Assembly: GCA_004297775.1 (NCBI GenBank)
Contig: SCUE01000032.1
Coordinates: forward strand, 1 to 64,000
Reading direction: 5' to 3'
Source: Chloroflexota bacterium
GTDB lineage: Bacteria; Chloroflexota; UBA6077; FW602-bin22
Length of the DNA stretch: 64,000 bases
Position 1 is the first letter of the stretch, and each line of letters begins with the position of its first letter. Position numbers and translations under genes: made by a program. Shown piece by piece: positions 25,586 to 53,419 of this stretch. The notes under the pieces are model-generated. The model was not told the origin of the DNA. It saw only the letters and a program-made list of their open reading frames with translations, and ran no database searches.

Positions 25586-26422
25586 TCACCCGCGCGGCCG
25601 GATCCCCAGGAGAAACGTATTGGCCACGAAGCGCGCCAGTTCGCCGTCATCAAGGTGCGCGAGGTCGTCCCTCCGCAAGACATCGCGCATCACGACGTAG
25701 CCGAACATCGTGTTGAAAAACGTTTGCGCGACCAGGCACGGGTCCTCGGACACCAATCGGCCAGCGCGCACCTCGCGGTCGAGATACTTCGCCAGCAATC
25801 CAACCAATTCGTGCGACACGTAGCGATTCATGAACGCGCGGAATCGCGGGAAGCGTTCGATCCCGCCGAGAACGACCTGAAAATGGCGCAGCAGGCGCCG
25901 GAATCCGATCAGGTACTCCTCGGCGATTCGCCGAAGGACGACCTCGGGCGGCAATCCGGTCAAATCGTGCAAAGCTACGTCGATCCGCGCCGCCGGAACG
26001 GCGCTCACGAACGCCGCTTCGAGCAGCGCTTCCTTGTCGCGAAAATGCCAGTAGATCGCGGCTTTCGAGACGCCGGCGCGCTTCGCGATGTCGGCGATCG
26101 TGGTCGCGACGAAGCCGCGCTCGGCGAACAATTCCAGCGCCGCCTCCGGTATCGTGTCACGAGCGCGATCGACTTCATCGGCCGGGACGGCCATTCCCGC
26201 CTGCCCGAGCGCTTCGCGCAGCGCCGCCCGCGACGGGAAGTAGTTGAAGAGCGTCGGCCGCGACACGCCCGACGCCATCGCGACCGCGGTCATCGTGGTG
26301 CGCGCCCAGCCTGATTCTTCGACCAATGTCCGCGCGGCCGTCACGATTTGCTCTCGGCGAGCGGTCCGCTCGCGGAGGCCGCGTGCACGCCGTCCATCAG
26401 TCGGACGATCAGCCGTCGTCAT
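25586..26422 (-). CDS. TetR-family regulator with two tandem HTH domains
   Basis: A 278-residue protein with two complete TetR N-terminal domains. The first is at residues 22-70 (QIVTAARTLVEESGW, then GVSRPTLFNYFPSRAALREAL). The second is at about 86-135 (EAALELFAERGFVATTIADIAKRAGVSKAAIYWHFRDKEALL). One ligand-binding domain of about 140 residues follows. Normal TetR proteins have about 200 residues and one HTH. It is the last gene after etfB on the same strand, with a 50-base gap, and a TACACT box 6 bases before its ATG may give it its own leaderless transcript. It is the best candidate to control the OFOR-Hdr-ETF operon. Confidence 0.88.
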   Translation of the reverse strand: MTTADRPTDGRRARGLRERTARREQIVTAARTLVEESGWARTTMTAVAMASGVSRPTLFNYFPSRAALREALGQAGMAVPADEVDRARDTIPEAALELFAERGFVATTIADIAKRAGVSKAAIYWHFRDKEALLEAAFVSAVPAARIDVALHDLTGLPPEVVLRRIAEEYLIGFRRLLRHFQVVLGGIERFPRFRAFMNRYVSHELVGLLAKYLDREVRAGRLVSEDPCLVAQTFFNTMFGYVVMRDVLRRDDLAHLDDGELARFVANTFLLGIRPRG

Positions 26423-26428
26423 GGCGCC

Positions 26429-26434
26429 AGTGTA
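26429..26434 (-). promoter_or_regulatory. -10 box TACACT, 6 bases before the tetR-like ATG
   Basis: TACACT on the minus strand with spacer ggcgcc to the ATG at 26422 and no ribosome binding site. It fits a leaderless internal promoter in the etfB-tetR gap. Confidence 0.4.
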
Positions 26435-26472
26435 CGGCTACCGGCATCGGCCTCGCCGCGCTGCGAACCGGG

Positions 26473-27318
26473 TTAAGCCGCTCCCGTTGGGCCGATCGCG
26501 CTGCCAGCCGTTTCACGCGGGAGATACGACCCGATCCGGTCGAGCAGAGCCCGAGCCTTCTCGTCAGGATCACCCTCGATGAACTCGCGACGCCGCTCGG
26601 TCGAGCCGGCCCGGTCCACCGACGAAACAACCGTTGCCGATCCGCGCGCTCCGATCATCTCGGGATCGACGCCCAGGTCCGCCGCGTTCCACACGGTCAC
26701 GGGAAGCGGGGTCGACCGCAATCGAATCCAGTCGGCGAACCGGGGCTCGTTTGCGCCGACGCGGACCGAAACAACCGCTGGCAGCGGTACGGTCAGGATC
26801 TCGTGGCCGCCGGTCAGCTCGCGGCGCGCCCGCGCGCGGCCTCGCTCGGGCAGATACGCCAGTTCGGTGGCATATGTGATCTGCGAAAACCCGAGCCATT
26901 CGGCGATGCCCGGTGGCACCTGCGCGGTCGCGCCGTCGGATGATTCCTCGCCACACAGAACCAGATCGACCGGGAAATCGTCGCCGATCCGAGACACTCC
27001 TTTCGCCAACGTGTACGACGTGGGCAGCGTGTCGGCGCCGCCAAAGGCGCGATCGCTCAAAAGATACGCCGCGTCCGCGCCCATCGCCATCGTCAGCCGA
27101 AGGTATTCCTCGAAGAACGGCGGCCCCATCGAAAGGACACTCACTCGACCCCCGTGCCGATCCCGAAGCGCCAGTGCAGCTTCGATCGCGTTCAAGTCGG
27201 GCGGATTGAACTGCTGGCGCGCCCGGGCGCGATCGAGTGTCTTCGTCTCGAGATTGACCGTCACCTCCTCCGGGCGAGGAACGACCTTGGCGCAGACGAC
27301 GATGTGCAGCTGCCTCAT
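26473..27318 (-). CDS. etfB: electron transfer flavoprotein beta subunit
   Basis: A 281-residue EtfB/FixA homologue. The start HIVVCAKVVPRPEEV, NPPDLNAIEAALALRD (about 38), VSVLSMGPP, AYLLSDRAFGGADTLPTSYTLAKG (about 85-108) and LVLCGEESSDGATAQVPPGIAEWLG are all standard family motifs for the AMP/FAD-binding subunit. With EtfA it forms a heterodimeric FAD protein that passes electrons between dehydrogenases and an acceptor, here probably the HdrD-like protein encoded next door. Its ATG overlaps the etfA stop (ATGA). It is somewhat longer than non-bifurcating EtfB. Confidence 0.93.
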   Translation of the reverse strand: MRQLHIVVCAKVVPRPEEVTVNLETKTLDRARARQQFNPPDLNAIEAALALRDRHGGRVSVLSMGPPFFEEYLRLTMAMGADAAYLLSDRAFGGADTLPTSYTLAKGVSRIGDDFPVDLVLCGEESSDGATAQVPPGIAEWLGFSQITYATELAYLPERGRARARRELTGGHEILTVPLPAVVSVRVGANEPRFADWIRLRSTPLPVTVWNAADLGVDPEMIGARGSATVVSSVDRAGSTERRREFIEGDPDEKARALLDRIGSYLPRETAGSAIGPTGAA

Positions 27319-28334
27319 TTGACGTGGACTCCTCTCCCGGCGCGAATGTGCTCGATCAGAGGAGGAAGGACGCTCCCGATTTCGTCGACGATGCAGTAGT
27401 CGGCATGCTCGAAGATCGGCGCGTCGCGATCGGCGTTGATCGCGACGACGCAGTCGGCCGCGTCGATGCCGACCGTGAACTGCATCGCACCCGATGCGCC
27501 GAGGACAAACGCCAGCTTCGGATGGGTCACGACTCCGGTCTGTCCGATCTGTCGCTCTCGCTCGACCCAGCCCTGGTCGACCGCCACGCGCGTCGCGCCG
27601 ACCTCCGCGCCGATGAGTTCGGCCAACTCACGCAGCGGTGCGAAGTCGCCTCGCGTCCCGCCACCACCGACGACGAGCCGTTCCGCGGTCGTGAGGCCGG
27701 GCTGTTCGTGCCGAATGTGCTCCTCCACCACAACCCGCTGGTCGCGACGGGCGAGATGAACCGGGATCGTTCCAATCAGGCCCCAGGGCTGATCGACCGG
27801 CGCCGGCGGCCGAAAAATCCCTGGACGCACGGTCGCCATCTGCGGCCGGTGTTTCGGGCATGTGATCGTGGCGTAGACACCTCCGCCGAAACCGGTCGTC
27901 CGGCCGAGGAGAAGGCCGGTATCGGCCTCGAGATCGAGCCAGGTGCAATCGGCCGTCAATCCGGTCCGCAAGCGCACGGCCAGCCGCCCAGCCAGATCGC
28001 GGCCGTTCGGAGTCGCGCCGAGCAGGAATATGTCGGGCTTGCGCTCCAGAACGAGATCCGCCACGACGCGCGCATACGCGTCGGTCGTGTAGGTCGCCAG
28101 TGCCGGGTGCTCGGCTACGAGCACGAAATCCGCGCCGACCGCGCGCGCTGTCTCCGCCGCGGCCAAGACGCCGTCACCGAGAATGATGGCCGTCAGAATC
28201 GTCCCGGCTTGATTCGCCAACTCGCGGCCACGCCCAAGCAGTTCCAGCGACACGCCTTCGAGGACGCCGCCGTCCTGTTCGACGAAGACCCAGATTCCGT
28301 TCGCCTCGGCGACCGTGTAGCCGGACGCGCTCAT
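27315..28334 (-). CDS. etfA: electron transfer flavoprotein alpha subunit
   Basis: A 339-residue EtfA/FixB homologue. The N-terminal part starts GIWVFVEQDGGVLEGVSLELLGRGREL. The C-terminal FAD-binding domain has VVGGGGTRGDFAPLRELA (about 220), DQGWVERERQIGQTG, ASGAMQFTVGIDAADCVVAIN and DYCIVDEIGSVLPPL. No extra ferredoxin domain is present. ATG 28334 overlaps the stop of the HdrD-like gene (ATGA), so expression is coupled. The longer frame to 28472 is only overlap with that gene. Confidence 0.93.
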   Translation of the reverse strand: MSASGYTVAEANGIWVFVEQDGGVLEGVSLELLGRGRELANQAGTILTAIILGDGVLAAAETARAVGADFVLVAEHPALATYTTDAYARVVADLVLERKPDIFLLGATPNGRDLAGRLAVRLRTGLTADCTWLDLEADTGLLLGRTTGFGGGVYATITCPKHRPQMATVRPGIFRPPAPVDQPWGLIGTIPVHLARRDQRVVVEEHIRHEQPGLTTAERLVVGGGGTRGDFAPLRELAELIGAEVGATRVAVDQGWVERERQIGQTGVVTHPKLAFVLGASGAMQFTVGIDAADCVVAINADRDAPIFEHADYCIVDEIGSVLPPLIEHIRAGRGVHVK

Positions 28335-29536
28335 GGCCGCGCTCCCGTCAGGTTTGATCTGGTCTGGACGCCGAGCGCTTCGGCGACGAGTTCGGCGATA
28401 TCGACGACACGCAGCCCCGGACGATCGCCGATCTTGGCCGCGTCCTCGAGGCACGCAACACAGTGCGGGCATGCCGTCGCGAGAGTGTCGGCGCCGACCG
28501 TCCGCGCTTGCTCAATGCGTAGGTCGCCAAATCGCTCACCCGCCGGCGTCTCCTGCCACATCCGTCCGCCGCCACCGCCGCAACAGAGGGCGTCCGCCCG
28601 ACTCTCAGCCATCTCGACGATCTCCACGCCGGGGATAGCCGCCAGGATCTGCCGAGGCGCGTCGTAGATGCCGTTTCGCCGACCGAGGTAGCACGGATCG
28701 TGATACGTGACGCGTGTCTCGACAGTCCGGACGAATCGAAGGCGTCCCTCGGCGATAAGCTCGGCCAGGTACTCCGTGTAGTGGAGCGGACGCCATCGAT
28801 CGTTCGCCTCATCCTGGAAATAGCGATGCTTGAACATGTCGGCGCAGTGCGGCGATGTCGCGACGATCGTCGAGACGCCGGCCGCGGCGAACCGCTTCTC
28901 GTTCGCCGCCACGATCTCACGCGCGTACGGCCGCTGCCCGAGCGCGTGAGCGCCTTCGCCACAACAGGGCTCCGCGTCCCCGAGGATTCCGAAATCCACA
29001 CCGGCGGCGCGGAATATCCCGACCAGCGCGCGCGCAATTCGTTGCATCCGAGGGTCGTACGATGACGTGCACCCGACGTAGTACAGTACCGCTTGCCCGG
29101 CCGCGAACGTCGGAACATCCAACCCCGCGGCCCAGACGGACCGGCGTGATGGCGGGCGCCCCCAGGGATTCCCATCCGCGTACATCCCCCAGAGCAGGGC
29201 ATTGAACCCATCCGGAACCGACCGGCGTCGCCACGCCACGTCGCGCAGCCCGACGATGACGTCGGCAATCGGCACCCCGCGCGGACAACTCGCTTCGCAG
29301 GCCGCGCAGGTCGTGCAGAGCCAGAGCCCATCCGCCGCACCGTCCATACCGAGTTGCGCCTGTCGCATCAATCGTCGCGTGCTGATGCCGGTTTCGCGGA
29401 CGAGTCCCCACGGACAGACCGCCGTGCAGACGCCGCACTGATAGCACGCCGCCGCCGCGCCGCGCGTCACGCGCATGACCTCGTCGCCGAGCGCGTCGTC
29501 CAACATCAGGGTGTCGAGCGCCAAGGCCTGATTCAT
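28331..29536 (-). CDS. HdrD-like iron-sulfur oxidoreductase (two CCG domains)
   Basis: A 401-residue soluble protein. The N-terminal ferredoxin part has CYQCGVCTAVCP at 31-42 and CTTCAACEASCP near 74-85, ligands for two [4Fe-4S] clusters. Two CCG domains follow: YYVGCTSSYDP...AEPCCGEG (about 152-195) and VTYHDPCYLGRRNG...LCCGGGGGRMW (about 285-338). These match HdrB/HdrD and GlpC/LutA-type proteins, where CCG domains hold a non-cubane cluster for disulfide or quinone chemistry. No membrane segment. Between an HdrA-like protein and ETF it is the likely electron relay. Start ATG 29536 is one base after the HdrA stop. Confidence 0.9.
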   Translation of the reverse strand: MNQALALDTLMLDDALGDEVMRVTRGAAAACYQCGVCTAVCPWGLVRETGISTRRLMRQAQLGMDGAADGLWLCTTCAACEASCPRGVPIADVIVGLRDVAWRRRSVPDGFNALLWGMYADGNPWGRPPSRRSVWAAGLDVPTFAAGQAVLYYVGCTSSYDPRMQRIARALVGIFRAAGVDFGILGDAEPCCGEGAHALGQRPYAREIVAANEKRFAAAGVSTIVATSPHCADMFKHRYFQDEANDRWRPLHYTEYLAELIAEGRLRFVRTVETRVTYHDPCYLGRRNGIYDAPRQILAAIPGVEIVEMAESRADALCCGGGGGRMWQETPAGERFGDLRIEQARTVGADTLATACPHCVACLEDAAKIGDRPGLRVVDIAELVAEALGVQTRSNLTGARP

Positions 29537-29537
29537 T

Positions 29538-32500
29538 TCACACTCCGACCAACTGACGTTCCGCGCCGTTCACCACGTCGGCCATCTCGCGAACCTTGGC
29601 CGCGAACTGCTTGCCCTCCGCCGCCGAAACCCAGTGGAGTTGCAGCCTCTCGGGCGCGATGCCGCGGCGGGCAAACTTCTCGCGCCAGAGGCCGAAGCGC
29701 TCGACCGTTCGATTGTTAGCGTTGATGTAGTGGCAGTCGCCGGGATGGCAGCCCGTCACCAGCACCGCGCCGGCGCCTCGTTTGAAGGCTCGATCGATGA
29801 AGTTCTCCTCGATACGCCCGGAGCACATCCCCCGGATGATGCGCGCGACCGGCGGATACTGAATCTTCTCGATCCCGGCCTGATCGGCACCGGCGTAGGA
29901 GCACCAGTTGCAGGCGAAAACGATCACCTTGTCGGCCGGATCATCCGCCAGAGCGGCGTCGATCTGTGCCGTGATCTGGTCGCCCGTGAAGTACGGCATC
30001 GTGATCGCGTCGAACTCGCAGGCCGCCGCGCACGTGCCACACCCCTCGCACGCCGCTTCGATGACCCGCGCGACGGCGTGCCGGCCGCCGTTGGGCACGA
30101 GCTCGATCGCGTCGAACGGGCAGGTCGCCTGACACACCGCGCATCCGGTGCACACGCTCGGGTCGACCTTGGCAGTAATCGGCTCCTTCGTGATCGTGTC
30201 GCGCGCCAGGAGCACGCCGCACTTCGCGGCGGCCGCGAGCGCCTGCGCGACCGCTTCGCGCGTGTCTTTCGGCGCCTGGCAGGCGCCGGCGAGGTAGATT
30301 CCCGGCGATCCAGCCTCGGCTGGCCCCAGCTTTGGGTGCTTTTCGAGCAGGAATCCGTCTTCGCTGCGCGAGATCTTCAATTGACGTGACACGGTTTCGC
30401 TCGTCGGCGTCAATCCCACGACCAGCACCAGCAGGTCCGTCGCTAGACCGATCCTCCGGCCGGATAGCGTGTCGTCGAACGTCACCACTCCGTCGCGGTA
30501 GGCGACGGTCTCCTCGGTCGGCGTGTCCGGATCGACCCGGAAGAACTGGACGCCGGCGCGCATCGCCTCTTCGTACATCTCCTCGGCGTGCCGGCTGAAC
30601 GTGCGAATGTCCCGGTACACGATGCGCACGTGCTTGCCCTGCCCGCGCAGTGCCAGCGCCTGGTGAATCATTGAGGTGCAGCAGTAGCGCGAGCAGCCGA
30701 AGCACTCGTTGCGCGACCCAACGCACGCGAGGAAAGTCACCCGTTCGGCCGCAACGGTCGGGAGCCGCGCCTCGAGATCGAGGTTCGTGATGACGCGACG
30801 ATCCTGACCGTACCCAAACGCGGTTGGCACGCTCGGCGTCGCACCGGTCGCCATCACCACCGCGCCGGCTTCGATCTCCTCGCCATTCTTCAGGCGTGCC
30901 GTGTAGTGCCCGATGTGACCGCCGATCGTTTCGATCTCGGTCCCGAGGTGCATACGCACGCCGGCATCGATCGCATCGCGGGTCTTCGTGGCGATCAACG
31001 TGCGCGCGTCGATTCCCGACGGCGCTAGGTGGCGCAACTGCCGTAGTAGGCCACCGACCTCGGTGGCGCGCTCGACGAGATGGGTCTCGTATCCTTGTTG
31101 GGCGAGATTCGCCGCCGCCGCCAGGCCGGCGATTCCGCCGCCGACCACGATCGCGGCCTGAATGACCGGCTGCTCGCGGCCCTCGAGTGGCCCGAGAAGC
31201 CGCGCCTTGTCGATGGCCATGCTGGCCATTTCCCGTGCCTTCCGCGACGCGGCTTCCCGATCGCCGCGGTGGACCCAGGAGTCCTGGTTCCGCAGGTTTG
31301 CCATTTCGATGAGGTAGGGATTCAGGCCGGCACGGATCGCCGTGCGCCGAAACGTTCCTTCGTGCGTCTTCGGCGAGCAGGCCGCCACGACCAGCCGATT
31401 GATCTGCTTCTCCACCAGCGTCGCGGCGATCGCCTGCTGCGTGTTTCCGGCGCACGCAAACATCGTTTGCTCGGCATGGACGACGTTCGGCTGCGTCAGC
31501 GCGTACTCGACGACGCTCGCCGTGTCGATCGCGCCAGCGATGTTGGATCCGCAACGACAGACGAAGACGCCGATCCGCGGCTCGCCATCCGTCGGAATTA
31601 GCGTCGCCGGCGGTTCCTCCGGCCACTCACGGAGCCGGATATGTGTGAGCGCGGAGGCCGCCGCGGCCCCGGCTTCGGCGACGCTATCCGGAATGTCCTT
31701 CGGGCCGGAGGCGCACCCGGCGACGTAGATGCCTTGCCGAGTCGTGTGCAGTAATCCGCCGTATTCCTCGACCGACTGGACGAAGCCATCGCCGTCGAGT
31801 TCGATGTCGAGTCGGGCCGCCAGATCGGCCAGACCATCCGGTGGGCGCGCCGCGGTCGCCAGAACAACCAGATCGAACTCGTCGGTCACGATCTGTCCGG
31901 CGTCGGTGTCCTCGTAGCGAACCGCGACGCGATCGCCGGCTGGATCCGAGATTGGCAACACGGCGGCCGGCCGGCCGCGCACGTACGACACACCGTCAAC
32001 CTGGGTGCGCTTATAGAAGGCGTCGAACCCCTTCCCGTACGCCCGAATATCCATGTACATGACGGTCACGTCGGGAACGCCGTGATCCTTGGCCTGAAAC
32101 GCGTGCTTCGCCGAATACATGCAGCAGAATCGCGAGCAGTACGAATAGTGGCGCCGATCGCGCGAGCCGACGCACAACACGAACAGCACCTTCTTCGGAT
32201 GCTGCCCGTTCGACGGCTTGACGATCTCGCCGCCGGTCGGACCAGCCGACGAGAGCAATCGCTCGAGCTCGAACGACGTCAGGACGTCCGGGTGCGCACC
32301 GTAGCCGAACTCGGCCAGTTGACCGGGATCGATCAACGTGAAACCGGTCGCGACGATGACAGCCGCGACCTGACGCGTGTGCACCCGCTCGCGGAAGTCG
32401 CCGAAATCGATGCACTTCGGCCCGCACGCCGCGACACAGCGGCCGCAGGGCAAGTAATTCGGTGGATCGTTCAGGCAGTTCTCGATGTCAATCGCGTACG

Positions 32501-32957
32501 CACCCGGAACCGCTTGTGGAAACGGCGTAAAGATGGCTCGTCGCGGCGCGAGCGCGGCGTTGAATTCGCTCGGCACGACGACCGGGCAGACGCGGACGCA
32601 ATCGTCGCAGCGCGTGCAATCCTTCGTCACGAATCGCGGCTTCTCACGGATCGTCGCTGTGAAATCACCGGCTTCGCCGACGACCGATTCGACCTCCGCG
32701 TTCGCGATGATCTCGATGTTGGGGTGCTCGGACACTTCCGAGAGCTTCGGCGCCTCGATGCAGATCGAGCAGTCGAGAGTCGGGAAGTTCTTGTCGAGCG
32801 CCGCCATCGTGCCGCCGATCGACGTCGACCGTTCGACCAGCGTGACGCGCACACCCGCATCGGCCAGGTCGAGCGCAGCCTGTACACCGGCGATTCCGCC
32901 GCCGATGATGAGGACGGATCCGCCTGCGTGTCGGCCGTTCGGCGTCGGACCGCTCAT
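29538..32957 (-). CDS. double HdrA-like flavoprotein with ferredoxin and MvhD domains
   Basis: A 1139-residue fusion. Module 1 (1 to about 450): FAD motif GGGIAG at 19-24, CxxCxxCxxxCP at 114-125, further Cys at 161, 171, 174, 178 and 182, CVGSRD at 262 and YCSRFCC at 273-279. Module 2 repeats a whole HdrA: N-terminal domain VFVCRCGSNIAGAID at 465-479, second FAD motif GGGIAG at 607-611, CVGSRN at 745 and CSRYCC at 755-760, then two [4Fe-4S] ferredoxin motifs at 936-946 and 970-980. The tail (about 1010-1139) is MvhD-like: CNWCSYAGAD, GMCSGR and GCHPGDCHY. HdrA is the flavin site of electron bifurcation in methanogens; QmoA/QmoB are related. Overlaps the OFOR gamma stop by four bases. Confidence 0.92.
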   Translation of the reverse strand: MSGPTPNGRHAGGSVLIIGGGIAGVQAALDLADAGVRVTLVERSTSIGGTMAALDKNFPTLDCSICIEAPKLSEVSEHPNIEIIANAEVESVVGEAGDFTATIREKPRFVTKDCTRCDDCVRVCPVVVPSEFNAALAPRRAIFTPFPQAVPGAYAIDIENCLNDPPNYLPCGRCVAACGPKCIDFGDFRERVHTRQVAAVIVATGFTLIDPGQLAEFGYGAHPDVLTSFELERLLSSAGPTGGEIVKPSNGQHPKKVLFVLCVGSRDRRHYSYCSRFCCMYSAKHAFQAKDHGVPDVTVMYMDIRAYGKGFDAFYKRTQVDGVSYVRGRPAAVLPISDPAGDRVAVRYEDTDAGQIVTDEFDLVVLATAARPPDGLADLAARLDIELDGDGFVQSVEEYGGLLHTTRQGIYVAGCASGPKDIPDSVAEAGAAAASALTHIRLREWPEEPPATLIPTDGEPRIGVFVCRCGSNIAGAIDTASVVEYALTQPNVVHAEQTMFACAGNTQQAIAATLVEKQINRLVVAACSPKTHEGTFRRTAIRAGLNPYLIEMANLRNQDSWVHRGDREAASRKAREMASMAIDKARLLGPLEGREQPVIQAAIVVGGGIAGLAAAANLAQQGYETHLVERATEVGGLLRQLRHLAPSGIDARTLIATKTRDAIDAGVRMHLGTEIETIGGHIGHYTARLKNGEEIEAGAVVMATGATPSVPTAFGYGQDRRVITNLDLEARLPTVAAERVTFLACVGSRNECFGCSRYCCTSMIHQALALRGQGKHVRIVYRDIRTFSRHAEEMYEEAMRAGVQFFRVDPDTPTEETVAYRDGVVTFDDTLSGRRIGLATDLLVLVVGLTPTSETVSRQLKISRSEDGFLLEKHPKLGPAEAGSPGIYLAGACQAPKDTREAVAQALAAAAKCGVLLARDTITKEPITAKVDPSVCTGCAVCQATCPFDAIELVPNGGRHAVARVIEAACEGCGTCAAACEFDAITMPYFTGDQITAQIDAALADDPADKVIVFACNWCSYAGADQAGIEKIQYPPVARIIRGMCSGRIEENFIDRAFKRGAGAVLVTGCHPGDCHYINANNRTVERFGLWREKFARRGIAPERLQLHWVSAAEGKQFAAKVREMADVVNGAERQLVGV

Positions 32958-33496
32958 CGAACCGCCTCCGCGATCCGGTCAAACGCGCCGCAACCGGCCG
33001 CGAGCGCGCGGAGATTCAGGTCGAGCGTGCGCGCGCGAACCGTCGACCTGAGCGCCTGCTCGGCCGCGTCGCGGCTGATCGCGCCGGTCACGGCGATGAG
33101 GAACCCCACCATCACGACGTTGGCGGCGATCTTGTTTCCGAGCTTCTCCGCCAACCGCGTCGCTGGTATGCCGTGGGCCGTGACGCCGGCGTCGAGATGA
33201 ACAAGACCATCGTCGATCAGGATGAATCGGCTCGCTGACGCGTCTTCGCCGTACTTGTTGGCCGCCTCGCGCGACATCAGCACCAGGATGTCCGGCTTCT
33301 CGACCAGCGGGTAGTCGATCGGGTCGTCGGAGATGACGACCTCGGCCGCGCAGGCTCCGCCACGCGCTTCGGGGCCGTACGACTGCGACATCGACGCGAA
33401 TCGGCCGTCGTACAGCGCCGCCGCTTTGCCGATCAGATGCCCGGCCAGGATGATCCCCTGGCCGCCGAATCCCGCGAGTCTGATCTCGGTGCGCAT
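32954..33496 (-). CDS. korC: 2-oxoacid:ferredoxin oxidoreductase gamma subunit
   Basis: A 180-residue subunit of the OFOR family. Signature parts are EIRLAGFGGQGIILAGHLIGKAA at the N terminus, SQSYGPEARGGACAAEVVIS near residue 37, and the VVMVGFLIAVTG helix near 125. It contributes to CoA binding and subunit contacts. ATG 33496 has GGAGG ten bases before it, and its stop overlaps the HdrA start (ATGA). That overlap ties the oxidoreductase to the Hdr part of the operon. Confidence 0.92.
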   Translation of the reverse strand: MRTEIRLAGFGGQGIILAGHLIGKAAALYDGRFASMSQSYGPEARGGACAAEVVISDDPIDYPLVEKPDILVLMSREAANKYGEDASASRFILIDDGLVHLDAGVTAHGIPATRLAEKLGNKIAANVVMVGFLIAVTGAISRDAAEQALRSTVRARTLDLNLRALAAGCGAFDRIAEAVR

Positions 33497-33500
33497 CGAT

Positions 33501-34346
33501 TCACCCTCCGGTGGAAGCCCGTACTGGCTGGAAGACCGGCCGCTCGACGTCGACGAAGTTTCCGAGGTAGATCGGCGCGTCGGCCGTCAGATCGACCTGG
33601 GCACGCGCGAGATCGACGCCGTCATCGACGACGCAGTGCCTTCGGTACAACTCCATCTCGTCGATGCCAGCCCCAAGGTCGTTCGACTTGCCGTAGCTAA
33701 TCGGACAGGGCGCCAACACCTCGATGAAACGAAAACCGCGTTTGGCGAGCGCCCGCTCGAAGGCCGCTTGCAGTTGACGGACGTGCAGGACTGTCCACCG
33801 CGCGACGAACACCGCGCCGGTCGCGGCCGCGAAGTACGGGAGATTCAACGGTGCCTCGCGATTGCCAAGCTGCGTCGTCGTCGTCCGCGAGCCGACCGGC
33901 GTCGTCGGACCGCCCTGACCGCCGGTCATCCCGTAGTTGAAGTTGTTGACACAGATGACGTTGAGATCGATGTTCCGCCGCGCCGCGTGGAGGAAGTGAT
34001 TGCCGCCGATGGCGAAAAGGTCGCCGTCGCCGCTGAACACTGTCACGGCCAGATCGGCGCGGGCCATTTTCAGTCCGGTCGCGAACGGTATCGCGCGACC
34101 GTGCGTCGTGTGGAACGAGTCGAGGTTCAGGTAACCGGCGACGCGGCCAGTGCAGCCGATGCCAGATACGCAGACGTGCCGATCGATCGGGATCGACGAC
34201 CCGCTCAGCGCTCGAACGAAGGCATCAGTCGCGGTGCCAATTCCGCACCCCGGACACCAGATGTGCGGGAGGCGGTCGGCGCGGAGCAGTCCGTCAGCGG
34301 GATGCGATTCAACGGCGATAGCGGCGCCGGAAGTCTGGACGACCAT
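33501..34346 (-). CDS. korB: 2-oxoacid:ferredoxin oxidoreductase beta subunit (TPP-binding)
   Basis: A subunit of about 281 residues. HIWCPGCGIGTA near residue 30 gives cluster-ligand Cys residues. The thiamine pyrophosphate motif is SGDGDLFAIGGNHFLHAARRNIDLNVICVNN. GMTGGQGGPTTP follows with its conserved Gln. LAPCPISYG near 210 is the usual C-terminal Cys motif. It cleaves the 2-oxoacid. The frame is open to 34373, but ATG 34346 (AAGGAGG 12 bases upstream) is preferred. It overlaps the alpha gene by 38 bases, an unusually long but clear overlap. Confidence 0.92.
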   Translation of the reverse strand: MVVQTSGAAIAVESHPADGLLRADRLPHIWCPGCGIGTATDAFVRALSGSSIPIDRHVCVSGIGCTGRVAGYLNLDSFHTTHGRAIPFATGLKMARADLAVTVFSGDGDLFAIGGNHFLHAARRNIDLNVICVNNFNYGMTGGQGGPTTPVGSRTTTTQLGNREAPLNLPYFAAATGAVFVARWTVLHVRQLQAAFERALAKRGFRFIEVLAPCPISYGKSNDLGAGIDEMELYRRHCVVDDGVDLARAQVDLTADAPIYLGNFVDVERPVFQPVRASTGG

Positions 34347-35490
34347 CCGATTCCAATCCCTCCTTGATGCCATGCCAGATTGCCTCTGGCCGGATCAGCG
34401 CGCCGCCGGCGTGATTCACGCGAATGACCGGGCGGGCGGTGTATCGGTCGACCTCGCGAGCCATCTGGCCGAGGTTCATCTCGGGGAATACGAACGCCTT
34501 GACGCGTTCGCCGATATCGGCGATGAACTCCCCGGGAAACGGCCAGAGCGTGATGAGACGCAGCAGACCGACCCGATGGCCGGCATCGCGCGCCTCGTTG
34601 ACGACTCGCTTCGCCACCCGTGCCGAGCTACCGAAAGCGACCACGACGATCTCAGCGTCGTCCAGGCGATCCGCCTCGTATCTGATCAGCTCGGGCGCTG
34701 AATCGGTGATCTTCCGGCACAGCCGGCGTACCAGACGATCGTGCACGTCGGCCGTTGTGGCGGGATAGCCGCGCTCGTCATGCGTCAGGCCGGTGACGTG
34801 CACGCGGTAGCCGGCGCCGATCGGCGGCATCGGCGGCACCAGATCGCTGCCCGGTTCGAACGCCTTGAAACCGTTACCGGCGGGAGCGGTTGGCAGCCGA
34901 CGACCGACGATCTCCACACGGCCAGATGCCGGAATCTCGACGGGCTCAGTGAGATGTCCGACGATCTCATCACTCATCACGAAGACCGGGGTTCGGAACC
35001 GTTCGGCCGTGTTGAACGCCTGAATCGTGAGGTCGAACATCTCCTGGCACGAAGCTGGGGCATACGCGACCGGCTCCCAGTCGCCGTGCGAGCCCCATTT
35101 CGCCTGCATCACGTCCGCCTGGGCCACGAGCGTCGGCAACCCGGTCGAGGGCCCGCCACGCTGGACGTCGACGATGACGCACGGCGTCTCGGTCATCGCC
35201 GCCAGGCCGATGTTCTCCATCATCAGCGAGAAGCCCGGACCAGACGTGGCCGTCATCGCTCGGGCGCCACCCCAGGAAGCGCCGAGGACGGCCGCGATCG
35301 ACGCGAGCTCGTCCTCCATCTGAATGTACGTGCCGCCGGTCTCGGGCAGCCGTCGCGACAGGTGCTCGGCGATTTCGGTCGAGGGGGTGATCGGATACCC
35401 CGCGAAGAAGCCGCACCCGGCCGCGAGCGCGCCCTCGGCGCACGCCATGTCGCCGTTGATGAAGAGTCGTCGCGACCGCTCGACCGCCAT
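34309..35490 (-). CDS. korA: 2-oxoacid:ferredoxin oxidoreductase alpha subunit
   Basis: A 393-residue subunit of KorA type, without a fused gamma domain. GYPITPSTEIAEHLSRRLP near residue 32, QMEDELASIAAVLGASWGGARAMTATSGPGFSLMMENIG (about 57-95), and VDVQRGGPSTGLPT (about 107-120) are the family's conserved pyrimidine-domain motifs. The 2-oxoacid substrate (2-oxoglutarate, pyruvate or another) cannot be fixed from sequence alone; kor names are used because of the subunit layout. Start shares one base with the ferredoxin subunit stop (TGATG). Confidence 0.92.
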   Translation of the reverse strand: MAVERSRRLFINGDMACAEGALAAGCGFFAGYPITPSTEIAEHLSRRLPETGGTYIQMEDELASIAAVLGASWGGARAMTATSGPGFSLMMENIGLAAMTETPCVIVDVQRGGPSTGLPTLVAQADVMQAKWGSHGDWEPVAYAPASCQEMFDLTIQAFNTAERFRTPVFVMSDEIVGHLTEPVEIPASGRVEIVGRRLPTAPAGNGFKAFEPGSDLVPPMPPIGAGYRVHVTGLTHDERGYPATTADVHDRLVRRLCRKITDSAPELIRYEADRLDDAEIVVVAFGSSARVAKRVVNEARDAGHRVGLLRLITLWPFPGEFIADIGERVKAFVFPEMNLGQMAREVDRYTARPVIRVNHAGGALIRPEAIWHGIKEGLESDGRPDFRRRYRR

Positions 35491-35762
35491 CAGTTCACCT
35501 CGACCGTGTAGATGGCAAACTCAGGACAGACGATCTCGCAAAACCCACAGTTGACGCAGCCGAATTCCTTGCCAGCGGCGACAATCGGATAGCGATAGCC
35601 CTTCGCATTCGTCTCGCTCGACTCGGCCAGCACGTCCTCGGGGCAGAACTCGATACAGAAGCGGCACTCCTTGCACCGCGCGGTCAGGACGTACACCTGG
35701 CCGCGCGGCCGGGTGACGGACCCGAGATCGAGATACTGCCGAATCGGCGCACTCCGTGCCAC
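35490..35762 (-). CDS. korD: 2-oxoacid:ferredoxin oxidoreductase delta subunit (2[4Fe-4S] ferredoxin)
   Basis: A ferredoxin subunit of about 90 residues. The two cluster motifs are CKECRFCIEFCPEDVL and CVNCGFCEIVCPEFAI. It takes electrons from the oxidoreductase core. GTG 35762 is preferred because AGGAG lies nine bases upstream; the ATG at 35771 touches the same AGGAG directly. First gene of the nine-gene operon that runs to 25586. Confidence 0.9.
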   Translation of the reverse strand: MARSAPIRQYLDLGSVTRPRGQVYVLTARCKECRFCIEFCPEDVLAESSETNAKGYRYPIVAAGKEFGCVNCGFCEIVCPEFAIYTVEVN

Positions 35763-35831
35763 GGCGCTCATCTCCTGATTGCCCGGCCACCACGGTCAAA
35801 CTACTGATAGACAGGTACGTTGCGTGCCGAT

Positions 35832-35860
35832 AGACTATCCACTACTGATCGATCAGTCAA
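35832..35860 (-). promoter_or_regulatory. near-consensus promoter of the OFOR-Hdr-ETF operon
   Basis: On the minus strand TTGACT (35855-35860), 17 bases, then TAGTCT (35832-35837). Transcription would begin near 35825, giving a leader of about 60 bases before korD. It is the best-matching promoter I found in the window. Confidence 0.7.
35844..35857. promoter_or_regulatory. 14-bp palindromic operator ACTGATCGATCAGT
   Basis: A perfect palindrome overlapping the -35 and spacer of the operon promoter. A second, weaker copy matching 10 of 14 bases (actgatagacaggt) lies at 35803-35816, just downstream of the start of transcription. Size and position fit a TetR-type repressor site; the tandem-HTH TetR at 25586 is the candidate binder. 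Confidence 0.65.
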
Positions 35861-35942
35861 TATCAGTAAATACTACTTAGTCGCGCGCATGCGGTCATTC
35901 GGTCGGCGCGCCGATGGCGCGTCGGCCGTCGAGGAGGTTGGC

Positions 35943-37571
35943 GTGGAGAGCCGAACAACGTCGCTCACGCTCGATCGTAAGGGGCGTCTCGAAATCGAGC
36001 CGAGCCACCCGCCCCGTCAGAGGGCCACCGAGCGGGTCGCGAACTGGCGCGAGGTGTTTCTCGGGTTCGATCCCGAGAGTGCGATAAATGAAGCGAGTCG
36101 CTGTATCCAGTGTCCCGGCGCGCCGTGCATGGTTGCGTGTCCGCTACACAACGACATTCCGGGCGCGCTCTGGCTGATCGAGCACGGCGATCCCGGCGCG
36201 GCCGGAGATGTCTTCCGGCGAACGTCGAATATGCCCGAGATTTGCAGCCGCGTCTGCCCGCAGGAGAAGCTCTGCGAGGGCGCTTGCGCGGTCGGGCGAA
36301 ACGGCGCCGGACGACCGGTCCAGATCGGCAAACTCGAACAGTTCTGCGCTGACTATCTCCTCCGGAACGACAGTCGGCCGGCGCGCCAGGTCGACGCGAC
36401 GCAGCCAACAATTGCCGTCGTCGGCGCCGGACCAGCCGGGCTCGCCGCGGCCGAGGAACTCGCCTTAGTCGGACATCCCGTCACGGTCTACGACGCGTGG
36501 CCGGTCGCGGGCGGAAATCTGCGCTACGGCATCCCCAGCTTCAAGCTCGACAAATCGCTGATCGATGCGCGAATCGCGCGTCTCGAAGCCCTGGGCGTGT
36601 CGTTCCGACCGAACGCGCGCCTTGGCGTCGACATCACGGTCGACGATCTTCTGAAAGTGAACGCGGCGGTCTTCCTGGCCTACGGCGCCAGCGGCGCGAA
36701 CCGCCTTGGCGTGCCCGGCGAGGAATTGCCCGGTGTGTACAGCGCGACCGAATTCCTGGTTCGCGCGAATCTCGATCCGGCCGATCGACCGGCTGCTCTT
36801 CAGGCGCCATTGAGCGTCGGATCGCGCGTCACCGTCATTGGCGGCGGCGACACCGCGATGGACTGCGTTCGGAGCGCTTTGCGGCTCGGCGTGCCAGACG
36901 TCGCCTGCGTCTATCGCCGGAGCGAAGCCGAAATGCCAGGGCGCATCGAGGAACGTCGCTACGCCCGCGACGAAGGCGCCGAGATCCACTTCCTGGCCGC
37001 GCCGATCCGCATCCTCGGCGACGGGCAGGTTTCCGCCGTCGAGTTCATACGGATGGGGCTCGCTGAGCCGGATCAGTCCGGTCGAAGAAGCGTCCGCCCA
37101 ATCGAGGGATCCGAGTTCACGATCCCAGCCGACATGGTCGTCGTCGCGGCCGGCTACCGCGTCGAAGACGGCGTCCTGGAGGTCGGCACTGGCATCGATA
37201 CCGGGCGCGGCGCGATCGTCGTCGTTGACGCGGAATCGGGCCGTACCAGCCGGCCGGGCGTCTTCGCCGGCGGCGATCTGACGACCGGCGCAAGCCTCGT
37301 CGTCACCGCTGTCGCGGCTGGCCGCCGGGCTGCCCGCGCCATCCACGAATCGGCGCGGTCCGAGTCGTTCGAGCCACGGCCGAGCACCGTCCCACCGCGA
37401 CACCTGAACCTCACGACTCTTCGGCTCTGGCGCGATGCCCTCACTGCCGAGGCAGAACGCCTCGCTGCCTCGCTCACCGACGTCGGAGTTGAAGGCCGAC
37501 GGATGGAGATCGAATTCGAGCTCGAACTGATCGACGACCGGCTGAGGGAAATCGCCCACGCGTCGGACTGA
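35943..37571 (+). CDS. GltD/NfnB-like NAD(P)H-dependent flavin oxidoreductase
   Basis: A 542-residue protein. The N-terminal cluster domain has CIQCPGAPCMVACP, then ICSRVCPQEKLCEGAC (ligands for two [4Fe-4S]). Next is the FAD Rossmann motif VVGAGPAGLAAAEELAL and the NAD(P)H motif VIGGGDTAMDCVRSALR. The architecture equals the glutamate synthase small subunit and NfnB, and no GltB gene is nearby. Divergent from the OFOR-Hdr-ETF operon and sharing its control region, it could pass electrons between NAD(P)H and ferredoxin or the Hdr complex. GTG 35943 has AGGAGG five bases before it; the earlier codon at 35820 would place the start inside the operator region. Confidence 0.88.
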   Translation: MESRTTSLTLDRKGRLEIEPSHPPRQRATERVANWREVFLGFDPESAINEASRCIQCPGAPCMVACPLHNDIPGALWLIEHGDPGAAGDVFRRTSNMPEICSRVCPQEKLCEGACAVGRNGAGRPVQIGKLEQFCADYLLRNDSRPARQVDATQPTIAVVGAGPAGLAAAEELALVGHPVTVYDAWPVAGGNLRYGIPSFKLDKSLIDARIARLEALGVSFRPNARLGVDITVDDLLKVNAAVFLAYGASGANRLGVPGEELPGVYSATEFLVRANLDPADRPAALQAPLSVGSRVTVIGGGDTAMDCVRSALRLGVPDVACVYRRSEAEMPGRIEERRYARDEGAEIHFLAAPIRILGDGQVSAVEFIRMGLAEPDQSGRRSVRPIEGSEFTIPADMVVVAAGYRVEDGVLEVGTGIDTGRGAIVVVDAESGRTSRPGVFAGGDLTTGASLVVTAVAAGRRAARAIHESARSESFEPRPSTVPPRHLNLTTLRLWRDALTAEAERLAASLTDVGVEGRRMEIEFELELIDDRLREIAHASD

Positions 37572-51568: not shown

Positions 51569-53419
51569 CTAGAAGGTGCCCGCGAGGTGGCCGAGCCCAA
51601 CCTTCTCGAGCGTCTGCGGACTCGGCCGCCCATCGGCGCCACTCCAGCCCATCCCTTCGCGATACAGCTTGACCATGCCGTCCCAGTGCTCGCCGATGCC
51701 GATGCCGGCGTTCGGACCATCGGTTGGCGTCGAGCCGTAGCGGATCGATGGCCGCTCGAGCGATGAGTCCAGACCGTGCTGAAAATTGAAAACCCGCAAC
51801 TGATTGACGATGCGCTTCCCGACTGTCATGGCCTCGTCGAGCGCCATGTCCCACCCGGTCACCGCGTTCAGCATATCGAGGGCAAACCCGGCGTGCGTGT
51901 TGCAGAAGCGGCAGACTCCCAGACAATCGTCGAACTGGTGCCAACCGTTGAATTCGGCCGCCATCGTCGCGACCTCGACCGGGTCGAACCGGTTCCGTTG
52001 CGGCGGAAGCCCGATCCGCTGCGTCTGGATACCGCCGAACGTCGCCTCGATCGTGCTCGTGTTCGAAAGGCAGGTGTCGAACATCTCGGCCCAGCGCCCG
52101 CGGTGATCGTGGCTGCGCGGCGTATTTCCCTTCAGCGTGTACACGCCCATCGCCTGCGCCTCGCCGCCAAGATGCTCGGCCGCGCGCTTCGTGCCCTCGG
52201 CCAACACCGCGCCAAAGTCCTCCCGCCGCGCGATCTTGCCAATGAGAGCCTTGATCGATTCCGCGTCGCCCCAGCGCGGCTCGAGTCCGCCGAGCATCTC
52301 GCGCGTGATCAGCCCGCGATCGAACGCCTCCAGCGCGAAGCCGACGATCCAACCGCCTTCATTGATGTCGAAGCCGAGCGCGTCCACTTCGTTCCCGAGC
52401 ATGACGACCGCGCCGGCCTCGGTCACGCCCACCTGCGGACCGAATGACGCGATCCCCTCGTACTCCGGCTCCTCGCCCTTGACACCCTTGTACGGACCCT
52501 CGGTCACCTCGACGAGCTTGCAGCAGCCCATCCGACAGGCCCAGCACGGATTGTTCTTGATCTTGAACTTCGTCCGCATGAACTGCCCGTTGATCTGCTC
52601 GTGCTCGGCGAACACCCCGGTCTGGTAGTTGCGGATCGGCAGCCAGCCGCCGATCGCCGCGCCGGAGACACCGCCGCCGGTGCCCCATTGATAGAGCGAA
52701 CTGGTCCGGTTCTCGCTCGCCGCGCCGAACATCGGCTCGATCAGGCTGTTGACACGCGCGGAATCGTGGATCGGGATCGCCGTCTTGCCACGGGCGGTCG
52801 CGATCGCCTTGAGGTTCTTCGCGCCGAGAACCGCGCCGACGCCGTTGTGCGCCGCGACGTGACCGCGATCGCCAACCAGCGCCGCGAAACGGACGAGGTT
52901 CTCGCCGGCCGGGCCGATCGAGAAGACCGACATGCCTTTGTCGTTCGTTCGGAAGTCGGCGCGAATCGCGTCCTCGACCGCCCACGTGTCCATACCCCAG
53001 TACTTCGTCGCGTCGCGCAGTTCGGCGGTTCCATCGTGGATGTAGAGAAAGGTCGGTCGCACCGCCTTGCCGACGAGCACGATCGCGTCGTAGCCGTTCT
53101 GGCGGAGAAAGGCGCCCAGGAATCCGTTCGCCTGCGTCGCGCCGGCCTGGTTCGTCATCGGACCCTTGAACACGGCCGAGAACAGACCCGTGCCCGACAC
53201 CTTCGTGCCGGCCAGCGGGCCGCTCGCCAGGATCACGGGATTGGCCGGGTCATCCCAGTTCGTGCCCGGGGGACACAACTCGACGAGGTACTTGGTTCCG
53301 AGACCGGTGCCACCGACCCAACGGCGATAGGTCGCCTCGTCGAGCTGATCCTGTCCGATCGCTCCGGTCGTCAAATCCACGCGCAAGACCCGCCCGGTGT
53401 AGCCGCCTGGCACCGCCAT
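51569..53419 (-). CDS. aldehyde:ferredoxin oxidoreductase (tungsten/molybdenum)
   Basis: A 616-residue enzyme oxidising aldehydes to acids with ferredoxin as acceptor. The N-terminal pterin domain begins GYTGRVLRVDLTTGAI, with ILASGPLAGTKVSGTGLFSAVFKGPMTN at 63-90. NGVGAVLGAKNLKAIA (192-207) is the usual cofactor motif. The [4Fe-4S] ligands are C292, C295 and C299 (CWACRMGC), with a later Cys in DDCLGVCRFC. DHRGRWAEMFDTCLSNTSTIEA continues the C-terminal domains. Length is typical. ATG 53419 follows GAGGGGACGACG. Followed by the MoaD-like gene. Its ferredoxin could feed the Hdr/OFOR system. Confidence 0.92.
   Translation of the reverse strand: MAVPGGYTGRVLRVDLTTGAIGQDQLDEATYRRWVGGTGLGTKYLVELCPPGTNWDDPANPVILASGPLAGTKVSGTGLFSAVFKGPMTNQAGATQANGFLGAFLRQNGYDAIVLVGKAVRPTFLYIHDGTAELRDATKYWGMDTWAVEDAIRADFRTNDKGMSVFSIGPAGENLVRFAALVGDRGHVAAHNGVGAVLGAKNLKAIATARGKTAIPIHDSARVNSLIEPMFGAASENRTSSLYQWGTGGGVSGAAIGGWLPIRNYQTGVFAEHEQINGQFMRTKFKIKNNPCWACRMGCCKLVEVTEGPYKGVKGEEPEYEGIASFGPQVGVTEAGAVVMLGNEVDALGFDINEGGWIVGFALEAFDRGLITREMLGGLEPRWGDAESIKALIGKIARREDFGAVLAEGTKRAAEHLGGEAQAMGVYTLKGNTPRSHDHRGRWAEMFDTCLSNTSTIEATFGGIQTQRIGLPPQRNRFDPVEVATMAAEFNGWHQFDDCLGVCRFCNTHAGFALDMLNAVTGWDMALDEAMTVGKRIVNQLRVFNFQHGLDSSLERPSIRYGSTPTDGPNAGIGIGEHWDGMVKLYREGMGWSGADGRPSPQTLEKVGLGHLAGTF

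Follow-up and report, generated by a model that had tools for sequence, protein, structure and literature searches.

A conserved eight-gene unit of Chloroflexota encoding a candidate soluble complex of a 2-oxoacid oxidoreductase, a double HdrA, an EtfD-like HdrD and a dedicated electron-transferring flavoprotein

INTRODUCTION

The closest described relatives of the gene cluster reported here come from Thioflavicoccus mobilis and tubeworm symbionts, in which the genes of the 2-oxoglutarate oxidoreductase KorABCD lie together with FlxABCD-HdrABC, TfrAB and AclAB (PMC6315080, PMC11636981), and where direct electron transfer between the oxidoreductase and the Hdr proteins has been proposed. A further relative of one subunit is EtfD, the mycobacterial electron-transferring flavoprotein (ETF):menaquinone reductase (PDB 9ojn, PMC13083937), which carries two cubane clusters and a noncubane cluster, D2, with a histidine ligand and works with an ETF as partner. 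Here, we analyse a locus at positions 25586-37571 of a 64,000-nucleotide stretch of DNA (the window; GCA_004297775.1, contig SCUE01000032.1) from a 4.03-Mb draft genome of a Chloroflexota bacterium, 96% complete with 7% contamination. The locus encodes a 2-oxoacid:ferredoxin oxidoreductase (OFOR), a double HdrA with an MvhD tail, an HdrD-like protein and an ETF. At roughly even odds, we read its eight core genes as one soluble complex of a 2-oxoglutarate oxidoreductase, the double HdrA-MvhD, an EtfD-like HdrD and a dedicated EtfAB.

Like the Thioflavicoccus and symbiont clusters, this locus places the genes of a four-subunit, probable 2-oxoglutarate oxidoreductase among HdrA/Hdr genes, and in one relative (L048) it has neighbours for aconitase, isocitrate dehydrogenase (IDH) and an ATP-citrate lyase (ACL)-like enzyme. 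Unlike them, the eight-gene unit contains neither FlxABCD, an NADH module, nor TfrAB, and no neighbour recurs in its listed flanks; an EtfD-like HdrD replaces HdrBC, an ETF is added, and the majority of carriers possess citrate synthase but lack an ACL-like operon. The combination of HdrD, HdrA and MvhD resembles, presumably and by description rather than by sequence, the BamDEF module of class II benzoyl-CoA reductase. The catalytic module here, unlike that of the Bam system, is OFOR plus ETF, and the cluster has no aldehyde ferredoxin oxidoreductase (AOR)/BamBC or BamGHI genes. Separately, a class II benzoyl-CoA reductase-like stretch with the order AOR-Fd-HdrD-HdrA-MvhD (L046:1412-13054) was seen in a genome of the window's own order of Chloroflexota (G121); its HdrD, beside the AOR-family gene, is 42% identical to that of the cluster. 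OorDABC is the Helicobacter/Campylobacter-type 2-oxoglutarate oxidoreductase and is not known to have Hdr or ETF partners. Its four subunits and its order D-A-B-C (8ys5) recur in our cluster.

RESULTS

Eight genes in constant order

Is this gene set a natural unit? We searched with the HdrA protein in 400 Chloroflexota genomes, in 393 genomes of another class of the phylum and in one scan of named genomes. The matches split into a group of at least 58% identity and one of at most about 44%, shorter fragments excepted, and we compared the sequences on either side of the first-group genes. Wherever the contigs reach, korD-korA-korB-korC-hdrA-hdrD-etfA-etfB stand in identical order on one strand in 26 of 26 Chloroflexota genomes, the window included, and the cluster spans at least two classes of the phylum. 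The gene order is far beyond chance, because the same eight-gene order is kept in 26 genomes. The sequence-only reading of the window had staked its proposal on the order being conserved in relatives, and on this point the proposal survives. It also knew of no characterised counterpart for such a soluble set; likewise, we found no description of the OFOR-HdrA-HdrD-ETF combination in the open-licence papers searched.

In the flanks compared, no gene outside the eight recurs across the group. The tetR gene returns only in the nearest relative (L038, 70%), and the GltD-like gene is in no fetched flank of the cluster-bearing relatives. Constant order and the lack of a recurring flanking gene thus define the unit as korDABC-hdrA-hdrD-etfAB; that part of the proposed operon stands, while the tetR and GltD/NfnB-like genes fall outside it. 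These genomes are drafts, and any absence reported here is conditional on how complete they are and on which family models were applied. In the pattern scan of named genomes, cluster-type HdrAs appeared in Chloroflexota only; since this insensitive scan recovers few known members, absence outside the phylum is not shown. What looked like a fusion of HdrA with HdrD in G169 and G304 proved to be an out-of-frame artefact of high GC content. HdrAs of about 40% identity occur in other contexts, by inspection of the sequence beside hydrogenase-like genes in L041 and L043, and in L046 in the Bam-like stretch with the AOR-family gene. In L042 (G352), HdrA-MvhD, HdrC-like, TfrA/SdhA-like flavoprotein and KorDAB genes share one stretch that resembles the published reductive tricarboxylic acid (rTCA) clusters. 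Near the cluster, L177 and L179 carry a gene that looks, on inspection only, like 4-hydroxybutyryl-CoA dehydratase.

In the window, domain models and a reading of the junctions confirmed nine minus-strand genes, transcribed in the order korD, korA, korB, korC, hdrA-mvhD, hdrD, etfA, etfB, tetR, and one divergent plus-strand gene. All genes of the earlier list are present, and mostly abutting or overlapping stop and start codons join them as it had described. EtfA begins at the ATG at 28334 rather than where the longer reading frame opens. The junctions are TGATG (korD/korA), a 38-nt overlap (korA/korB), a 4-nt gap (korB/korC), ATGA (korC/hdrA), a 1-nt gap (hdrA/hdrD), ATGA (hdrD/etfA and etfA/etfB) and 50 nt (etfB/tetR). 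Such an operon could also hold linked but physically separate enzymes, with the 2-oxoglutarate oxidoreductase and a soluble Hdr/ETF shuttle exchanging electrons through diffusible ferredoxin. Evolutionary distances between orthologues speak to this point on both sides: the correlation of HdrD with ETF (0.54-0.74) exceeds that of HdrD with the Kor subunits (0.34-0.36), as separate enzymes would allow, whereas HdrA and the Kor subunits correlate at 0.79-0.83. Together with the overlapping codons and the order invariant in 26 genomes, the latter value makes physically separate enzymes an improbable arrangement.

A four-subunit oxidoreductase, likely for 2-oxoglutarate

The first four genes, all on the minus strand, encode together the alpha, beta, gamma and 2x[4Fe-4S] delta subunits of a four-subunit enzyme of the OorDABC/KorDABC kind, with POR_N, thiamine pyrophosphate (TPP), POR and Fer4 domains spread over the four. 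The delta subunit KorD (or OorD; 35490..35771, 93 residues, Fer4_7), encoded by the conserved first gene, has OGOR_delta as its best match. The alpha subunit KorA (34309..35490, 393 residues, POR_N and PFOR_II) scores 559.8 bits against PRK08659, a general 2-oxoacid model, above the cut-off of 411, and its PDB matches are 1yd7 and, second best, 8ys5, a 2-oxoglutarate synthase. For the TPP-binding beta subunit KorB (33501..34346), whose start we set at the ATG at 34346 within korA, the best model is OorB and the best solved relative the beta chain of a 2-oxoglutarate ferredoxin oxidoreductase (8ys5_C). The gamma subunit KorC (32954..33496, 180 residues) has a POR domain. The subunits other than KorA match 2-oxoglutarate-type models below the equivalog cut-offs.

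The genome context points the same way. In L048, genes for IDH, aconitase, citryl-CoA lyase, a SucD-like and a SucC-like protein with a citrate-binding domain form an operon divergent to korD (L048:1-6448), and in G400 (L074, G400:C277) a SucC-SucD-citryl-CoA lyase-aconitase operon lies away from the cluster. Both genomes are Anaerolineae, and both operons look like a split ACL. A full-length citrate synthase is absent from these two genomes and present in the other 10 of the 12 tested. Because of the model and PDB matches and these citrate-cycle operons, 2-oxoglutarate is the likely substrate of the cluster OFOR.

The ETF has lost the bifurcation motifs

Is the ETF itself a site of electron bifurcation? 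The sequence-only reading had named HdrA and ETF alike as known sites of flavin-based bifurcation. The genes etfA (27315..28334, minus strand, 339 residues) and etfB (26473..27318, minus strand, 281 residues), with ETF and ETF_alpha domains between them, encode a protein that is like the group 2 bifurcating ETFs (EtfABCX/FixABCX, CarDE, Bcd-EtfAB, LctBC) in its sequence clade: in a small tree, EtfA is nested among bifurcating ETFs at a node with 7koe and FixABCX_G400 with support 1.0. It also shares their NAD motif RXFXG, with R and F in 21 of 21 orthologues and the final glycine in 19 of 21. Unlike them, it lacks the EtfA arginine at N5 of the bifurcating flavin adenine dinucleotide (FAD; motif RPXFGG), whose replacement abolishes bifurcation (PMC10734219) and which reads V, N or T in 23/23 orthologues. 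The beta-FAD motif of bifurcating ETFs, DGDTAQVGP (PMC9232219), is altered to DGAT[AG]QVP[PA] in 21/21, and the cluster encodes none of the partners FixC/X, Bcd, CarC and Ldh. As a positive control, the FixABCX ETF of the cluster-bearing genome G400 retains all three motifs. On these motifs we rejected the ETF as the bifurcation site, and by tree and motifs the cluster EtfAB descends from bifurcating ETFs and would itself be non-bifurcating. NAD(H) would be the likeliest far end of the electron chain.

The ETF could have served other partners. The earlier proposal saw a hub joining ferredoxin, a donor at the level of acyl-CoA dehydrogenases that acts through ETF, and NAD(P)H supplied through the divergent GltD-like protein; we weighed it for confurcation and bifurcation alike. 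All these parts are present in the window, and the bifurcation residues of HdrA are intact. Yet one acyl-CoA dehydrogenase was detected in the window's genome (G000) and none in G258 or G400. Where these enzymes are numerous, the genomes mostly carry additional ETFs, several beside a membrane EtfD. With the loss of the ETF arginine and a GltD-like gene that does not travel with the cluster, neither the acyl-CoA dehydrogenase donor nor the NAD(P)H link held up, and the hub as a whole is very unlikely. The same counts disfavour the ETF as a carrier of beta-oxidation. The ETF_alpha model detects a single ETF each in G000 and G258, that of the cluster, and neither genome yielded an EtfD or an ETF:quinone oxidoreductase (ETF-QO)/FixC flavoprotein. 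The ferredoxin domain PF05187, of which a search of G000 found nothing, occurs in only 2 of 12 genomes, beside FixC in G400 and in an orphan FixX-like protein in G258; a route from ETF to quinone through ETF-QO was rejected on this count.

A double HdrA with a conserved lysine in unit 1

The central protein, HdrA-MvhD (29538..32957, minus strand, 1139 residues), consists by domain models of two HdrA units and FlpD (MvhD), an arrangement backed by alignment, predicted structure and orthologue residues. Unit 1 (about 1-440) holds the FAD fold and an inserted ferredoxin and aligns with HdrA residues 146-497; unit 2 (about 459-1005), made up of an N-terminal domain, an FAD fold and a C-terminal ferredoxin, aligns with the N-terminal domain and the C-terminal ferredoxin part of HdrA; the MvhD tail follows at 1010-1130. 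The predicted structure (mean predicted local distance difference test score, pLDDT, 79; predicted template-modelling score, pTM, 0.82) finds its best match in the HdrA of HdrABC, and nearly all of the iron-sulfur cysteines are invariant among orthologues. Lys284 of unit 1, by position counted from the alignment, is the equivalent of Lys409 of Methanothermococcus thermolithotrophicus HdrA, a residue near N5 of the FAD to which a role in bifurcation is ascribed (compare PMC9232219). Lys284 is invariant in 22 of 22 orthologues, and its equivalent in unit 2 is not conserved. Flavin bifurcation, if any, would hence sit at HdrA unit 1 and not at the ETF; of the two sites first named, HdrA keeps its candidacy and the ETF loses it. 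In L177, L178 and L179, codon 66 of hdrA (Cys66) is TGA, in the context CSI*IE, possibly a selenocysteine in a Chloroflexota HdrA.

HdrD resembles the relay of EtfD

The hdrD gene (28331..29536, minus strand) encodes a soluble iron-sulfur protein of 401 residues with a Fer4 and two CCG domains. Its closest solved protein by sequence is EtfD (9ojn, 178 bits), and its predicted fold, modelled at a pLDDT of only 70 with a weak N-terminal third, reaches a template-modelling score of 0.70 to EtfD versus 0.48 to HdrB. It shares with EtfD the two cubane clusters, an ETF as its proposed partner and the D2 site, whose ligands C282, C318, C319, C356, C359 and H230 are present in 23/23 orthologues. Unlike EtfD, it has no membrane/heme b domain, and its gene adjoins hdrA: a hydropathy scan found no transmembrane-like segment in HdrD, and the same scan finds 3-5 in EtfD-like paralogues. 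The first CCG site, D1, differs as well: every one of the 23 orthologues has Ser228 where EtfD has Cys581, and the CC is retained; in 3 of the 23, further D1 ligands of this second cluster site are gone, a loss also described for FadF/DgcB (PMC13083937).

Homology of HdrA and of the CCG domains would fit a thiol/disulfide system, of heterodisulfide type or of the sHdr sulfur-oxidation type, recruited beside the OFOR, and Thermomicrobium and Sulfobacillus are reported to carry Hdr plus ETF clusters for the oxidation of sulfur (PMC6776052, PMC4378227). HdrD does not possess the two five-cysteine CCG noncubane clusters of a heterodisulfide reductase: the serine replaces a CCG cysteine throughout, and the invariant histidine corresponds to the residue of EtfD that is reported to render D2 non-catalytic (PMC13083937). 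An sHdr system would have genes for TusA, DsrE or lipoate-binding protein close by; among the flanking genes, which were in part assigned to families, none recurs. A thiol/disulfide function is accordingly the most remote of the explanations weighed here. Since the D2 ligands with their histidine are invariant, D1 carries a serine and D1 ligands are lost, the ligand pattern argues for HdrD as an electron relay to ETF rather than for disulfide reduction.

Regulator and neighbouring genes

The tetR-like gene (25586..26422, minus strand) encodes both of its TetR_N helix-turn-helix domains in a single chain. In the intergenic region between korD and the divergent gene lies a perfect 14-bp palindrome, ACTGATCGATCAGT (35844..35857), which has its sole exact copy there within the window and is a candidate operator of the local TetR. 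The divergent gene (35889..37571, plus strand) encodes a GltD/NfnB-like flavoprotein with Fer4_20 and Pyr_redox_2 domains. About 14 kb past it, the window holds a gene of the tungsten-family AOR (51572-53419).

DISCUSSION

In the complex that we favour, electrons would pass between 2-oxoglutarate/succinyl-CoA and KorAB (TPP, Fe-S), on to KorD, from KorD through the FAD and Fe-S chain of HdrA unit 1 to the cubane clusters of HdrD, and from these through the noncubane cluster D2 to the FAD of the ETF and to NAD(H), each step being drawn as reversible. Several observations weigh against this proposal. All 12 cluster-bearing genomes tested hold OFOR alpha subunits besides that of the cluster, most of them belonging to the fused two-subunit type, so the cluster is not the sole candidate 2-oxoglutarate oxidoreductase. 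The E1 subunit of 2-oxoglutarate dehydrogenase (OGDH) is absent in 8 of 9 sampled carriers versus 247 of 400 genomes (62%) of the phylum sample, which at about p=0.09 is not significant alone and only suggestive; a role as strict OGDH replacement is weakened by this and by the other OFORs. The NAD(H) assignment draws on a single retained motif whose adjoining FAD motif is altered, and the distances of HdrD correlate weakly with those of the Kor subunits.

In which direction would the complex run? COX1 is found in 11 of the 12 cluster-bearing genomes tested, and for this mostly oxidase-bearing set, oxidation of 2-oxoglutarate in the TCA cycle is the likely role; in the two Anaerolineae with the ACL-like operon, the complex may run reductively. 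A reductive role is also the main rival on a wider scale, because the published KorABCD-Flx-Hdr clusters couple 2-oxoglutarate oxidoreductase and Hdr genes. HdrA unit 1 would then bifurcate mid-potential electrons, the low-potential ones driving KorDABC to carboxylate succinyl-CoA, in an rTCA or a reversed oxidative TCA cycle, with HdrD-ETF as the other branch. Invariant Lys284 and Fe-S ligands in HdrA, the ACL-like operons in the two genomes that have no full-length citrate synthase, the published clusters with ACL (PMC6315080, PMC11636981), and fused two-subunit OFORs that could cover the oxidative step in the same genomes all fit such a scheme. Against it, the cluster encodes no Flx or other mid-potential donor, the ETF has lost its bifurcation arginine, and full-length citrate synthase (10/12) and a terminal oxidase (11/12) are the rule; we hold the reductive scheme to be rather unlikely.

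We tentatively suggest, as a possibility short of an even chance, that in these mostly respiring Chloroflexota an HdrA-based supercomplex hard-wires the oxidation of 2-oxoglutarate, or its formation by reductive carboxylation, to NAD(H), by way of the soluble EtfD-like relay and an ETF that became non-bifurcating secondarily. Such a complex would amount to another type of 2-oxoglutarate dehydrogenase and might perform three-way flavin confurcation at HdrA. If true, the modular HdrA family would gain a new partner pair, a 2-oxoglutarate oxidoreductase and an ETF, HdrA machinery would be at work among genomes most of which have a terminal oxidase, and an ETF would have left the bifurcating clade through the loss of one arginine. 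The cluster is a candidate link from 2-oxoglutarate to NAD(H) for Chloroflexota without OGDH and, in two Anaerolineae, a candidate driver of reductive 2-oxoglutarate synthesis.

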